NCBI GenBank assembly: GCA_031291685.1
Contig: JARLIP010000172.1
Span: 1-51,354 of the forward strand
Source: Caulobacteraceae bacterium
Lineage (GTDB): Bacteria > Pseudomonadota > Alphaproteobacteria > Caulobacterales > Caulobacteraceae
Direction: 5' to 3'
DNA: 51,354 nt
Part shown: piece by piece, positions 47,109 to 51,354 of the stretch
How the letters are laid out: each line of letters starts with the position of its first letter
Numbering within the stretch: position 1 is the stretch's first letter
Program-made: the position numbers and the translations under genes
The notes under the pieces: model-generated
Told to the model about the DNA's origin: nothing
The model's database searches: none
Seen by the model: the letters and a program-made list of their open reading frames with translations, nothing else

Positions 47109-48587
47109 ATGCCCATGAGCGCGCTAACCCGCTTCTTCGATTCGGCGGGATTTCTGCCGCACGGCTATTGTCTGCTGTGGCGGCCGGATCTGCTGGCCCT
47201 GCACGCCCTCTCCGACCTGCTGATCGCCTGCGCCTATTTCAGCATCCCCCTGGCGATCATGACCTTCGTGCGCCGCCGGAGCGACCTGGCGGCGGAGCAC
47301 AAGCGCATCGCCATCCTGTTTTCGACCTTCATCCTCGCCTGCGGCATGACCCACGTGATGGGATTGGTGGTCCTGTGGCGCCCCCTCTACGCCCTCGACG
47401 GCGGGATCAAGGCCTTCACGGCGGTCATATCGATCATGACCGCGGCGCTGCTCTGGCCGGTCATTCCAAGGCTCCTGGCCTTGCCCTCCACCAGCCAGTT
47501 GGCGGCGATCAACGGGGCCCTGCGCGCGGAGGTCTCCGCCAAGCTGGAGGCCCTGGCGGCCCTGGACGCGATCCGGGGAGATCTGGAAACACAGGTCCAA
47601 CGCCGCACCCACGAGGTCGAGGCCCTGGCCCGCCGTTTCGAAATCGCCACGGCCGGATCACGGGTCACGGTCAGCGAGCAGGACGACCAGCTGCGCTATA
47701 CGTGGCTGCATAATCCGCGCGCGCCCCTGACCGCCGAAGCCATTGGCCGGTCGGACCTGGAGGCGATGGTTCCTGACGCCGCCGCGGTGCTGGAGCCACT
47801 GAAGCGGCGGGCGCTGGGTACGGGCTTGGCCGCGACCCATGAGGTCATCCTGCCCCTGGCCGACGGCCCCCGGCATTTCGAGATGTTCCTTACCCCAACC
47901 GAAACCGCCGATGGCGTGCGGGGCCTTTTGACGGCCTGGGTCGATATCACCGAACAGAAGCGCCAACACGAGCGGATGCAGGTGATCGTCCGGGAGCTGG
48001 CCCACCGGGCCAAGAACGTCCTGGCCCTGATCGAGGGCCTGGCCCGCCAATCGGTCAAGGCCGAGAACCTGCCCGAGGCGGTGATCATCCGCTTCAGCGC
48101 CAAGCTGGCCGCCCTGGGCGCCGCTCACGACCTGCTCTTGGACAGCGACTGGCAGGGGATTGAACTGCGCGGCCTGGTCGAGGCGCAATTGGCGCACATC
48201 ATGCCCGAGCCGAGGGTCGGGGTGACCATTGAGGGGCCATCGGTGATGCTCGGCCCAGAGGCGGGTCAGTACCTGGCCCTGGCCCTGCATGAGCTGGCCA
48301 CCAACGCCGCCAAGTTCGGGCGCCTCGGCCAAGCCGGCGAGACCGACATCCGCATCGCCTGGACCGCCACGGACGGCATGAACGGCGAAAAATATATCGA
48401 TTTCAACTGGATCGAACGGGGATCGCCGATCGCCCCACCCGCCCGCCGCGGCTTTGGCCGACTGCTGCTGGAGACCATCCTGCCCCGCGCCCTGCGCGGC
48501 GCCTCACAGCTGGAATTCGGCGAGGCCGGCCTGTCCTGGCGGGTTTCTTTTACTCAGGAGTTGCGACAATTCAGCGCAGGGCTGTAA
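47109..48587 (+). CDS. HWE-type sensor histidine kinase with ethylene-receptor (ETR1)-like transmembrane sensor and PAS domain
   Basis: N-terminus ALSDLLIACAYFSIPLAIMTFVRR...FSTFILACGMTHVMGL resembles ETR1 [22 protein letters not shown]...FGAFIVLCGATHLINL. C-terminal VIVRELAHRAKNVLALIEGLARQSVK and LALHELATNAAKFG are HWE/HisKA_2-type. Confidence 0.88.
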   Translation: MPMSALTRFFDSAGFLPHGYCLLWRPDLLALHALSDLLIACAYFSIPLAIMTFVRRRSDLAAEHKRIAILFSTFILACGMTHVMGLVVLWRPLYALDGGIKAFTAVISIMTAALLWPVIPRLLALPSTSQLAAINGALRAEVSAKLEALAALDAIRGDLETQVQRRTHEVEALARRFEIATAGSRVTVSEQDDQLRYTWLHNPRAPLTAEAIGRSDLEAMVPDAAAVLEPLKRRALGTGLAATHEVILPLADGPRHFEMFLTPTETADGVRGLLTAWVDITEQKRQHERMQVIVRELAHRAKNVLALIEGLARQSVKAENLPEAVIIRFSAKLAALGAAHDLLLDSDWQGIELRGLVEAQLAHIMPEPRVGVTIEGPSVMLGPEAGQYLALALHELATNAAKFGRLGQAGETDIRIAWTATDGMNGEKYIDFNWIERGSPIAPPARRGFGRLLLETILPRALRGASQLEFGEAGLSWRVSFTQELRQFSAGL

Positions 48588-48639
48588 GCTGACGGAATGC
48601 GCGGTTAGTGGGCGCATGGTTGAGTTTGGTCTCTTGTGC

Positions 48640-48996
48640 ATGGCCCGTGTGCTGATCGCCGAAGACGAAGCCTTTACAGCCCTGGCCTTGGTCGATCTGC
48701 TGACTGAACAAGGCCACACCGTTCAGGACGCCCCCGACGGCGCCATCGCCATCGACATGCTGCGCAGCTTCGAAGCCGACGTCCTGATCACCGACCTGAT
48801 GATGCCCAACATGTCCGGCGACGACCTGATCCGCCAGCTTCGCGCCCAGCCTGGGCGTCAGATCGCGGTGATCCTGATCAGCGGGGTGCCCGAGGGACGC
48901 CTGCCGGACGACATCCCCTACGACTCCTATCTGAGCAAGCCCATCGACCACGTCGCCCTGGGCCACCTGGTCAAGCGGCTCGCGCCGAACGCCTAA
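48640..48996 (+). CDS. Response regulator, single receiver domain
   Basis: MARVLIAEDEAFTALALVDLLTEQGHTVQDAPDGAIAIDMLRSFEADVLITDLMMPNMSGDDLIRQLR...YLSKPIDHVALGHLV. Confidence 0.93.
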   Translation: MARVLIAEDEAFTALALVDLLTEQGHTVQDAPDGAIAIDMLRSFEADVLITDLMMPNMSGDDLIRQLRAQPGRQIAVILISGVPEGRLPDDIPYDSYLSKPIDHVALGHLVKRLAPNA

Positions 48997-49008: not shown

Positions 49009-49653
49009 TTAAAAGTTCAGGCCCGTGGCGGCCTCCAGGGCGGCCAGGGCCTGGGCCTCGTTCTCCACCTTGATCGCGGTCATGCCCAGCTGGGCCGCCG
49101 GTTTGCAGTTGATCCCCAGGTCGTCGAGATAGACGCAGGCCGCCGGCTCAACGGCCAGCAACTCGCACATCATCAGATAGATCTTCGGGTCGGGCTTGCG
49201 CAGGCCAACCTTGGAGCTTTCGATCACAGCGTCGAACTGGGACATGATCTCGGCCACCTGGGCGGCCTTTTCCGAGGTGGCGGCCATGCCCGATCCATGA
49301 CCGGCGCTGGCCATGTTGTTGGTGATGCAGCCGACCTTGAAGCGGGCCTTGCAGGCCTTCAGGGCGCCCACCACCCGGGCGCGCACATCCCCCGACAGCA
49401 GGGGCAGGACATCGGCGCCGCGCACATCGTGGCCCAGGACGCGCGCCTCCTCGGCGAAGCGCACGTCGAACCCGGCGGCGTCGATTTCCGCCCGCTCGAA
49501 CAGGGCCCAGGCGTTATCGTGGGGATTGGCGGCGTTGATCGTGCGGATCAGGTCCCGGGGCAAGCCCCGCTGGGCCTCATAGCGATTGAAGGCCTCGAAG
49601 GGCGAGGTGGTGAACACGCCGCCAAAATCCCAAACCACCGCCTCGATCGCCAT
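49009..49653 (-). CDS. HAD family hydrolase
   Basis: ATG 49653: MAIEAVVWDFGGVFTTSPFEAFNRYEAQRG; GCITNNM; SSKVGLRKPDPKIYLMMCELLAVEPAACVYLDDLGINCKPAAQLGM. Confidence 0.92.
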   Translation of the reverse strand: MAIEAVVWDFGGVFTTSPFEAFNRYEAQRGLPRDLIRTINAANPHDNAWALFERAEIDAAGFDVRFAEEARVLGHDVRGADVLPLLSGDVRARVVGALKACKARFKVGCITNNMASAGHGSGMAATSEKAAQVAEIMSQFDAVIESSKVGLRKPDPKIYLMMCELLAVEPAACVYLDDLGINCKPAAQLGMTAIKVENEAQALAALEAATGLNF

Positions 49654-49802
49654 CCGCGCCTCATCCCGTCCCTGAATTTGGCCGCAAGCTAGAGACTTTT
49701 CCCGGGCAGGCAACCGCCCTGCAGACGACTGCTCTGGCCGCCCTTGGCCGATCTCTTGCGGATGACGGCGCGACCGTCCGATAACGAGACCGCCCAAGCC
49801 CC

Positions 49803-49913
49803 ATGCCCAACCGATACGGCCCGTTCCGGACGCGATACGAACTTGTCCTGGCGGTGATCGCCGCCCTCGCCTTCCTGATCCTCGCCGGCCTGACCCTGCT
49901 GGGATCGTCCTGA
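49803..49913 (+). CDS. Putative 36-aa single-TM small protein (not in ORF track)
   Basis: MPNRYGPFRTRYELVLAVIAALAFLILAGLTLLGSS*: basic N-terminus then one hydrophobic helix. Confidence 0.45.
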   Translation: MPNRYGPFRTRYELVLAVIAALAFLILAGLTLLGSS

Positions 49914-49951
49914 CGGTCGGCGCGCTTGCCAGGAGCAAACCGCCATGGCCC

Positions 49952-50731
49952 ATGAGGGCCATGATCCATGTGCCGACCTCGCCCTTGGCCCACGCGCCGT
50001 TCGACCTCTTGGCCTGGGCCTCGGGCCTGGGCTTGAGCGTCGTGCTTTATCGCTGGCGGCTCAAGGCCGCCGCCGAGCAGATCGCCCGCAAGGTCGATGG
50101 GGTCTATTTCCTGGCCCTGGCCCTCGGAGCGATCCCTGGCGCCTGGCTGGCCGGATCGCTCAACACCCTGCGCGGGCCGGCGCCCGCCCTGTCGCACAGC
50201 GTCGCCGGCGCCCTGGTGGGCGCCATCGTGGGGGTGGAGATCTATAAGGCCTTGCGAGGGGTGAAGGGGTCGACCGGAACCCTGTTCGTCGGCTCATTCG
50301 CCTTGGGGGTCGTGATCGGCCGCTTCGGCTGTCTGTTCGCCGGGCTCTCCGACCGGACCTATGGCGCGCCCACGTCCCTGCCCTGGGCGGTGGATCTGGG
50401 GGACGGCGTCGGCCGCCATCCGGTGGAGCTCTATGAAAGCGACGTGATGGCCGTCTTCCTCGCCGCCTATCTGATCGGGTTGGCCCGCCGTGCGCCCTGG
50501 GCCATGCGGCGGGGATTTTATGTTCTGTGCACGGTCTATGGCCTGCAACGTTTTGTGTGGGAGTTCCTGAAGCCCTATCCAAGGTTGTTGGGGCCGTTTA
50601 ATCTGTTCCAGCTTCTATGTCTGGGGTTGGTGGCCTATGGATGGATCTGGTTCGTCGGCGACCGGCGGCGAGAGCGCGACACGCAAGATCGCCCCCTATC
50701 TGTTCCTCGGCCAGACCACCAGCCTGTGTGA
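49952..50731 (+). CDS. Divergent prolipoprotein diacylglyceryl transferase (Lgt)-like membrane protein
   Basis: GVVIGRFGCLFAGLSDRTYGAPTSLPWAVDLGDGVGRHPVELYES...FYVLCTVYGLQRFVWEFLKPYPR: Lgt fold signatures, but the canonical GRxGN is GRFGC. Confidence 0.8.
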   Translation: MRAMIHVPTSPLAHAPFDLLAWASGLGLSVVLYRWRLKAAAEQIARKVDGVYFLALALGAIPGAWLAGSLNTLRGPAPALSHSVAGALVGAIVGVEIYKALRGVKGSTGTLFVGSFALGVVIGRFGCLFAGLSDRTYGAPTSLPWAVDLGDGVGRHPVELYESDVMAVFLAAYLIGLARRAPWAMRRGFYVLCTVYGLQRFVWEFLKPYPRLLGPFNLFQLLCLGLVAYGWIWFVGDRRRERDTQDRPLSVPRPDHQPV

Positions 50732-51354
50732 GACCTGCCTGGGCCTGGTTCCGGCCAAGATCATCGCCGAGGACAACCAGGTCTATTACCTCAAGCGCTG
50801 CCGCGAGCACGGGGTGCAAAAGACCCTGATCGCCGACGACCTCGGCTATTGGAAGGCGCAGAAGGACTGGCTGAAACCCGGCGACCGCCCTCTGGGGGTT
50901 CAGACCCGCACCGAGCACGGCTGCCCCTATGACTGCGGCCTGTGTCCCGACCACGAGCAGCATTCCTGCTTGGCCATCGTCGAGGTCAACGAGGCCTGCA
51001 ACCTGTCCTGTCCGGTCTGTTTGGCGGAAAGCTCCGTCAAGCACGAGGTCCACCGCCCCCTGGCCGAGATCGAGGCCATGTTCGACGTCTTGGTCGCCTC
51101 CGAGGGCGAGCCGGACTTGGTGCAGATCTCCGGCGGAGAGCCGACCCTGCACCCTCAGTTCTTCGAGATCCTGCGAGCCGCCCGCGAACGGCCCTTCCGG
51201 CACCTGATGATCAACACCAACGGCCTGCGCATCGCCCAGGAGGCGGGGTTCGCCGAACGGCTGGCCCAGTTCATGCCCAGGTTCGAGGTCTATCTGCAGT
51301 TCGACTCCCTGCGCCGGGAGGCCCTGATGAACCTGCGGGGGGCGGACCTGGTCA
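50637..51354 (+). CDS. Radical SAM protein, Tes/MJ0619-like, 3' truncated by window end
   Basis: Open frame missing from the ORF track because no stop lies in the window: MDGSGSSATGGESATRKIAPYLFLGQTTSLCETCLGLVPAKII...YYLKRCREHGVQKTLI...TEHGCPYDCGLCPDHEQHSCLAIVEVNEACNLSCPVCLAESS...LVQISGGEPTLHPQF. CNLSCPVC = CxxxCxxC. Confidence 0.88.
   Translation, partial: MDGSGSSATGGESATRKIAPYLFLGQTTSLCETCLGLVPAKIIAEDNQVYYLKRCREHGVQKTLIADDLGYWKAQKDWLKPGDRPLGVQTRTEHGCPYDCGLCPDHEQHSCLAIVEVNEACNLSCPVCLAESSVKHEVHRPLAEIEAMFDVLVASEGEPDLVQISGGEPTLHPQFFEILRAARERPFRHLMINTNGLRIAQEAGFAERLAQFMPRFEVYLQFDSLRREALMNLRGADLV

Follow-up and report, generated by a model that had tools for sequence, protein, structure and literature searches.

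A conserved pair of genes for an Lgt-like membrane protein and a Tes-like radical SAM protein, accompanied at many loci by small cysteine-bearing membrane proteins

Two overlapping genes at the end of a Caulobacteraceae contig

The DNA analyzed here (51,354 nt, referred to as the window) is one entire contig (positions 1–51354) of a draft genome (assembly 81% complete), the nearest named relatives of which are Caulobacter and Phenylobacterium. At its end lie a gene for an Lgt-like integral membrane protein (LG) and the beginning of a gene for a Tes-like radical SAM protein (RS). When the frames were re-read, both genes, and the 95-nt overlap between them, were found where an earlier inspection of the letters and their open reading frames (the sequence-only reading) had placed them. 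The features are as follows:

49952–50731, plus strand: LG, Lgt-like integral membrane protein, 259 aa (Pfam LGT, E. coli Lgt profile, alignment, AF2)
50318–50344, plus strand: LG signature GRFGCLFAG (GRLGNFING in E. coli Lgt; R143 kept, N146 replaced by C)
50637–50731, plus strand: overlap of the LG 3′ end and the RS 5′ end, 95 nt (reading frames)
50637–51354, plus strand: RS, Tes-like radical SAM protein, first 239 aa (Pfam/NCBIfam, orthologue L038, Tes 7tol, fold 7tom)
50727–50810, plus strand: RS rubredoxin-type site C31-x2-C34-x20-C55-x2-H58 (invariant in the RS set; Tes spacing)
50922–50954, plus strand: RS N-terminal auxiliary [4Fe-4S] site C96-x3-C100-x2-C103 and H106 (invariant; matches Tes)
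50997–51020, plus strand: RS radical-SAM cluster C121-x3-C125-x2-C128 (invariant; Pfam Radical_SAM)

The overlap recurs in relatives, as does the RS start MDG(S/T), of which MDG is kept in Caulobacteraceae; judged from this arrangement of the frames, translational coupling of both genes is probable. Because the window is the whole contig and ends inside RS, the gene is truncated in the source (full-length orthologues comprise ∼480 aa), and a search of the source assembly (81% complete) with the C-terminal half of an orthologue yielded no match that could be its continuation. Just upstream of LG, and divergent from it, a HAD-type phosphatase-like gene is located on the minus strand (49009–49962), the true start of which is probably internal because its longest frame overlaps the start of LG by 11 nt. 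Shortly upstream of the two genes, positions 47109–48996 contain a sensor-kinase-like gene and, after it, a response-regulator-like frame, neither of which was found adjoining the module in most relatives.

LG matched Pfam LGT over residues 21–234 (70.7 bits, cut-off 24.9; E = 1.6e-19) and the profile of E. coli Lgt (5azb, E = 2.2e-5), but stayed far below the cut-off of the NCBIfam Lgt equivalogs (32.8 bits, cut-off 334). Like Lgt (PDB 5AZB, 5AZC), it has seven predicted TM helices and the HPxQLYE segment; its AF2 model (pLDDT 89.5) consists of seven long helices, with the predicted equivalents of R143, E202, Y235, and R239 placed in TM4, TM5, and TM6, the helices where they are expected. In a Foldseek search of the PDB with this model, nothing reached E ≤ 0.001, and the 50 matches listed did not include Lgt; assignment of LG to the Lgt fold therefore rests on sequence and topology. 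Six residues of Lgt are kept (LG numbering in brackets), namely R143 (R124), G154 (G138), E202 (E162), Y235 (Y196), R239 (R200), and E243 (E204), whereas Y26 is replaced by H14, H103 by A, V, or I, N146 by C127, and R246 by Lys. Across 33 LG proteins, R124, G126, and C127 are invariant. E. coli Lgt requires Y26, H103, R143, N146, G154, and R239 (PMC13251419), of which LG keeps R143, G154, and R239 alone. R143 and R239 line the pocket in which the diacylglyceryl–phosphoglycerol bond (C3–O of phosphatidylglycerol, PG) is activated (PMC4728403); H103 and N146 vary in some distant Lgt proteins, and N146C as well as Y26H occur in distant homologues (PMC13251419).

From the GRFGC segment, the sequence-only reading had suggested that LG may not be an ordinary lipoprotein Lgt. 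The segment was read correctly, with Cys at the position of N146 in E. coli Lgt, but GRxGC alone does not show a role other than lipoprotein modification: as N146C is known in other distant Lgt homologues (PMC13251419), it is not diagnostic by itself, and it was rejected as proof of a new function. That LG is not the housekeeping copy follows from the presence of a separate canonical lgt gene in the source genome (contig C237, GRIANFINGELWG), the product of which reached 254.7 bits in a search where LG reached 70.1 bits. A distinct, better scoring Lgt was likewise present in all 20 further module-carrying genomes checked, so the notion that LG is the housekeeping Lgt was abandoned.

RS (50637–51353) matched Pfam Zn_ribbon_HMPTM (E = 2.8e-18) and Radical_SAM (E = 7.2e-15), and the cysteine motifs quoted in the sequence-only reading were all present (C31/C34/C55/H58, C96/C100/C103/H106, and C121/C125/C128). 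Orthologues in other Caulobacteraceae members are 76–84% identical (82% for L038). With L038 as the query, the closest solved structure by sequence was that of Tes (7tol, E = 5.6e-60). The fold was assessed on the orthologue from Caulobacter sp. BK020, using an AlphaFold2 model (pLDDT 79, with a weaker stretch at residues 360–420); the predicted structure matched Tes (7tom) over its full length (TM 0.78, E = 1.4e-33, 476 columns, 28% identity), while the next-best non-Tes structure gave a TM of 0.35. Besides this full-length fold, RS shares with Tes (GDGT-MAS, MJ0619; PDB 7TOL, 7TOM) the rubredoxin-type site (C9-x2-C12-x20-C33-x2-H36 in Tes), the N-terminal [4Fe-4S] cluster site (C73, C77, C80, and a His; PMC9433317), and the radical SAM cluster. 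Of the four Tes metal motifs, three show no variation among 31 diverse RS proteins; in distant actinobacterial RS, the Tes-type motifs are lost in part.

The C-terminal part differs from Tes. In the HMMER alignment (chain numbering being that of the paper plus 20), C438 of Tes corresponds to I or V, M439 to S or M, C455 to S, and C470 to D, leaving C456 as the only one of these cysteines kept; which of them bind the C-terminal cluster in Tes was presumed from their position. Tyr459, conserved in 1,000 archaeal homologues, is F in Caulobacteraceae RS sequences, and RS has invariant cysteines of its own (333, 404, 405, and 443). In a maximum-likelihood tree, all 48 RS representatives were split from MJ0619 and the acidobacterial Tes proteins (support 100/100, branch length 2.7), the depth of this split being unsure because long branches meet there. 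Scores against NCBIfam were 262–269 bits for Tes (NF045702, cut-off 450) and, as the best score obtained, 294–322 bits for TrsS (NF045646, cut-off 490), with which RS can also be aligned over its full length. The earlier assignment of RS to a Tes-like family is thus borne out as far as Tes is the nearest relative in structure (TM 0.78), and RS did not cluster with a characterized non-lipid family; it needs qualification in that RS branches apart as its own clade, in which the C-terminal ligands differ and Tyr459 is replaced. Identity with Tes was rejected on these grounds and because of the score below the NF045702 cut-off. Identity with TrsS was rejected because RS falls below the NF045646 cut-off and because TrsS loci, where read, have different neighbors, with no LG detected within 1.5 kb. 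Two loci of Bacillota (L222 and L219) encode intermediate RS-like proteins, each with an LG-like gene downstream; the C-terminus of the former is more Tes-like (CC..C).

Conservation of the gene pair and the small membrane proteins beside it

An even draw of 399 Pseudomonadota genomes, searched for RS at E ≤ 1e-20 and for LG at E ≤ 1e-25, gave the identical 13 genomes for both genes, which were adjacent every time; no genome had only one of them. Loci in which the RS N-terminus is intact numbered 100 and came from seven phyla (Alpha-, Beta-, and Gammaproteobacteria, Bacillota, Cyanobacteriota, Melainabacteria, Acidobacteriota, Verrucomicrobiota, and Myxococcota). LG was near RS in 97 of them; the other three (L079, L108, and L129) are cut off by a contig end at RS or close to it. 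Both genes were on the same strand in 96 of the 97 pairs (the exception, L132, is a poor frame), and they overlapped in 73, were within 100 nt in 15 and within 900 nt in 6, and were separated by longer gaps in two. The genes flanking the pair vary between genera while the pair itself stays, and its presence is patchy even within one genus. Plasmid records extend the module to Bacteroidota and Actinomycetota; it spans at least eight phyla. The pairing noticed in a single contig is hence conserved in relatives, and the two genes are a real, ancient unit.

The pairing is not a property of all Tes-family proteins, a notion that was rejected: within 1.5 kb, no LG was present at 27 genuine Tes loci and 4 long-form homologues (Acidobacteriota), and none was detected at the TrsS-type loci L196–L218. 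RS is always beside LG, Tes is not. The TrsS loci (Bacillota) carry, where read, neighbors of the methyltransferase, C_GCAxxG, and CoA-ligase type.

At most RS loci, the pair is accompanied by one to three genes for small membrane proteins (SMPs), located directly after RS, between LG and RS, or just before LG; in many loci, the SMP start codon overlaps the RS stop by ∼4 nt. An SMP was defined as a frame of 55–150 aa that has two or more hydrophobic helices and a Cys inside or next to one of them. By this rule, 44 of 48 non-redundant RS loci (below 85% identity) contained one, downstream in 36, and 4 did not, compared with 4.5% of random 760-bp windows from the same loci, a comparison in which the rule was made and tested on the same loci and the stretch scanned around a module can somewhat exceed the control windows in length. 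A stricter rule was satisfied at 31 of the 48 loci, vs 1.6% of random windows and 1.2% of positions after other long ORFs. Examples with one to three tandem copies are:

L036, 9886–10149
L038, 9583–9861 (genus-mate of the source; contains MTLCGICSAG)
L116, 5103–5877
L117, 3303–3623
L135, 3031–3718
L230, 5184–5956
L232, 3008–3866

In the source genome itself, the contig ends before the position at which a downstream SMP would lie, and no contig continuing RS was found.

SMPs have two to four TM helices and a conserved Cys where a hydrophobic helix ends, share common features across phyla without detectable sequence identity, and matched no family in Pfam or NCBIfam. A hydrophobic stretch followed by [GA]x?C was present in 53 of 61 SMPs, vs a mean of 22 (maximum 31 in 200 trials) when Cys was placed at random; the context of the Cys is [L/F]-x-G-[G/L]-C or NAAC, and its commonest forms (SGLC, GGC, and NAAC) do not strictly match a lipobox ([LVI][ASTVI][GAS]C after a signal-type helix). 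Crude hydropathy topology placed the Cys on the outer side in 67 of 112 scored placements, with several SMPs predicted the opposite way. Since dN/dS between close pairs was 0.09–0.70, SMPs are genuine genes under selection. Plasmid loci found later provided an independent check of the pattern, which held: the order is LG-SMP-SMP-RS in M. avium pS2b and M. branderi, SMP-LG-RS in Nonomuraea, and LG-RS-SMP in Chondrinema and Persicobacter. In RefSeq, each of the two mycobacterial loci has a pair of small hypothetical proteins annotated between LG and RS, every one of them carrying GxCTGxNP close to its C-terminus; for Chondrinema, one small hypothetical protein is annotated after RS.

Possible function of the module

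That LG, RS, and SMP belong together in one conserved module is well supported. The interpretation we favor, tentatively and with somewhat less than even confidence, is that this three-part module is membrane-directed and modifies lipids: LG would use PG with an altered acceptor, and RS would perform radical chemistry on lipid tails. Inclusion of the SMP as third component changes the most likely mechanism, for which we infer substrates, acceptor, order of steps, and product as follows. As the PG-handling arginine pair (R143 and R239) is kept, LG most likely still handles PG; like the Lgt from which it derives, it would bind the lipid and cleave the diacylglyceryl–phosphoglycerol bond, with an acceptor different from the usual lipobox. 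The best candidate for the diacylglyceryl acceptor would be the SMP Cys, which crude topology often places at the outer-leaflet end of an in-to-out helix, the side on which Lgt acts. RS would then apply the 5′-deoxyadenosyl radical to a hydrophobic substrate; most likely, it would join or modify acyl tails, either those of this lipid or those of the protein lipidated with it. Because RS is predicted to be cytosolic and Lgt acts on the outer leaflet, sharing a substrate would require either a flip or a membrane-spanning product. In its most specific form, which we consider unlikely as a whole, the Lgt-derived enzyme would load diacylglyceryl on the intramembrane Cys of the SMP, and the Tes-fold protein would join or cross-link the tails to yield a membrane-spanning lipid anchor or a membrane-spanning lipid bound to protein. 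Going by its residues, LG might also be a non-catalytic lipid binder, given the loss of H103 and N146, which are essential in E. coli Lgt.

The three-part module has to be weighed against a pathway of free lipids, in which RS would join or modify the tails of free phospholipids (compare Tes and Mss), LG would deliver or trim the head group, and the SMPs would be accessory or anchoring, the product being an uncommon membrane-spanning or tail-modified lipid. The fold and the N-terminal metal sites of RS are those of a lipid tail-coupling enzyme, the active site of Tes was occupied by E. coli phospholipids (PMC9433317), and a role in brGDGT synthesis has been proposed for bacterial Tes homologues (PMC8941075), with their function left open (PMC8941075, PMC11868695). 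Mss (with Ger; Thermotogota, Clostridia), a bacterial enzyme said to join lipid tails (PMC13274423), can be set beside RS by description, but it is a different protein, and its description contains no Lgt partner. What renders the free-lipid pathway a possible but rather doubtful explanation is that RS is altered in residues flanking what is the coupling site in Tes, namely the ligands of the C-terminal cluster and Tyr459, and that the conserved Cys and the tandem copies of the SMPs are left unexplained. In addition, membrane-spanning lipids are not known from Caulobacter, Sphingomonas, Bradyrhizobium, or Paenibacillus. A radical SAM gene with small, fast-evolving neighbors that are duplicated in tandem and encode a conserved Cys is, on the other hand, reminiscent of RiPP-like systems: SMPs would be precursor substrates of RS, modified by radical chemistry (e.g., at Cys), and LG would lipidate or anchor the product. 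We regard this as improbable, for RS resembles Tes over its full length, C-terminal domain included (TM 0.78 vs 0.35 for peptide maturases such as SkfB), and SMPs, with their several TM helices, have no visible leader/core layout.

Two further explanations were considered. LG could be a second lipoprotein Lgt of low activity, as is the LgtB-like protein MSMEG_5408, its vicinity to RS reflecting coregulation instead of one pathway. By description, LG is like this protein in carrying Y26H and N146C, both documented in distant Lgt homologues presumed to be of low activity (PMC13251419). However, no Tes-like radical SAM neighbor has been reported for LgtB-type proteins, and the full co-occurrence and adjacency with RS (13 of 399 genomes, several phyla), the overlap of the frames, and the constancy of the pair amid changing flanks make such a role most unlikely. 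Alternatively, RS could be an enzyme of the TrsS or pterin-methyltransferase type acting on a soluble substrate, with LG and SMP as mere membrane scaffold; TrsS being the best NCBIfam score of RS, and PF23545 being named after HMPTM, would accord with this. Yet the score is below the cut-off, and the MJ0619 family has proved to be a lipid synthase (PMC9433317). Methyltransferase and redox genes are the neighbors both at the TrsS loci and of the homologues found on plasmids of haloarchaea and M. vanbaalenii (no LG was detected within 1.5 kb of the former or is annotated beside the latter), so that we hold this explanation to be very unlikely.

Bearing on surveys of Tes homologues

In a literature search that covered only a minority of subscription papers and preprints, no published description of the LG partner, the SMPs, or the gene set was found. 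As to its parts, the module draws on known superfamilies; there is a smaller chance that the whole represents a new kind of lipid–protein modification. The module suggests that membrane lipids or membrane proteins are modified in a way not described before, and the genetic context is a specific, testable clue to the role of the enzyme, particularly as carriers occur in genetically established genera (Caulobacter, Sphingomonas, Bradyrhizobium, and Paenibacillus).

Sequence alone has been the basis for reporting "Tes homologues" in bacteria by the hundreds and for proposing them as brGDGT synthases (PMC8941075, PMC11868695). Cut-offs of that kind also admit the RS family, which bears on biomarker surveys: because it forms a separate clade, has altered C-terminal ligands, and has a constant Lgt-like partner, RS should not be counted as evidence for tetraethers or brGDGTs. 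Other Tes-family types were encountered alongside. A third type, which is neither Tes nor RS, occurs in Acidobacteriota (L150 and L193–L195) and has its C-terminus extended at length (open frames of ∼630–860 aa, ∼310–349 bits to NF045702). On haloarchaeal and mycobacterial plasmids, Tes-family genes (L227, 5971–8339; L228, 5980–8143; L229, 5983–8186) are directly followed by a methyltransferase gene, in some cases with thiol-redox genes nearby; such methyltransferase-linked plasmid genes may account for the halobacterial "Tes homologues" in strains without GDGTs.
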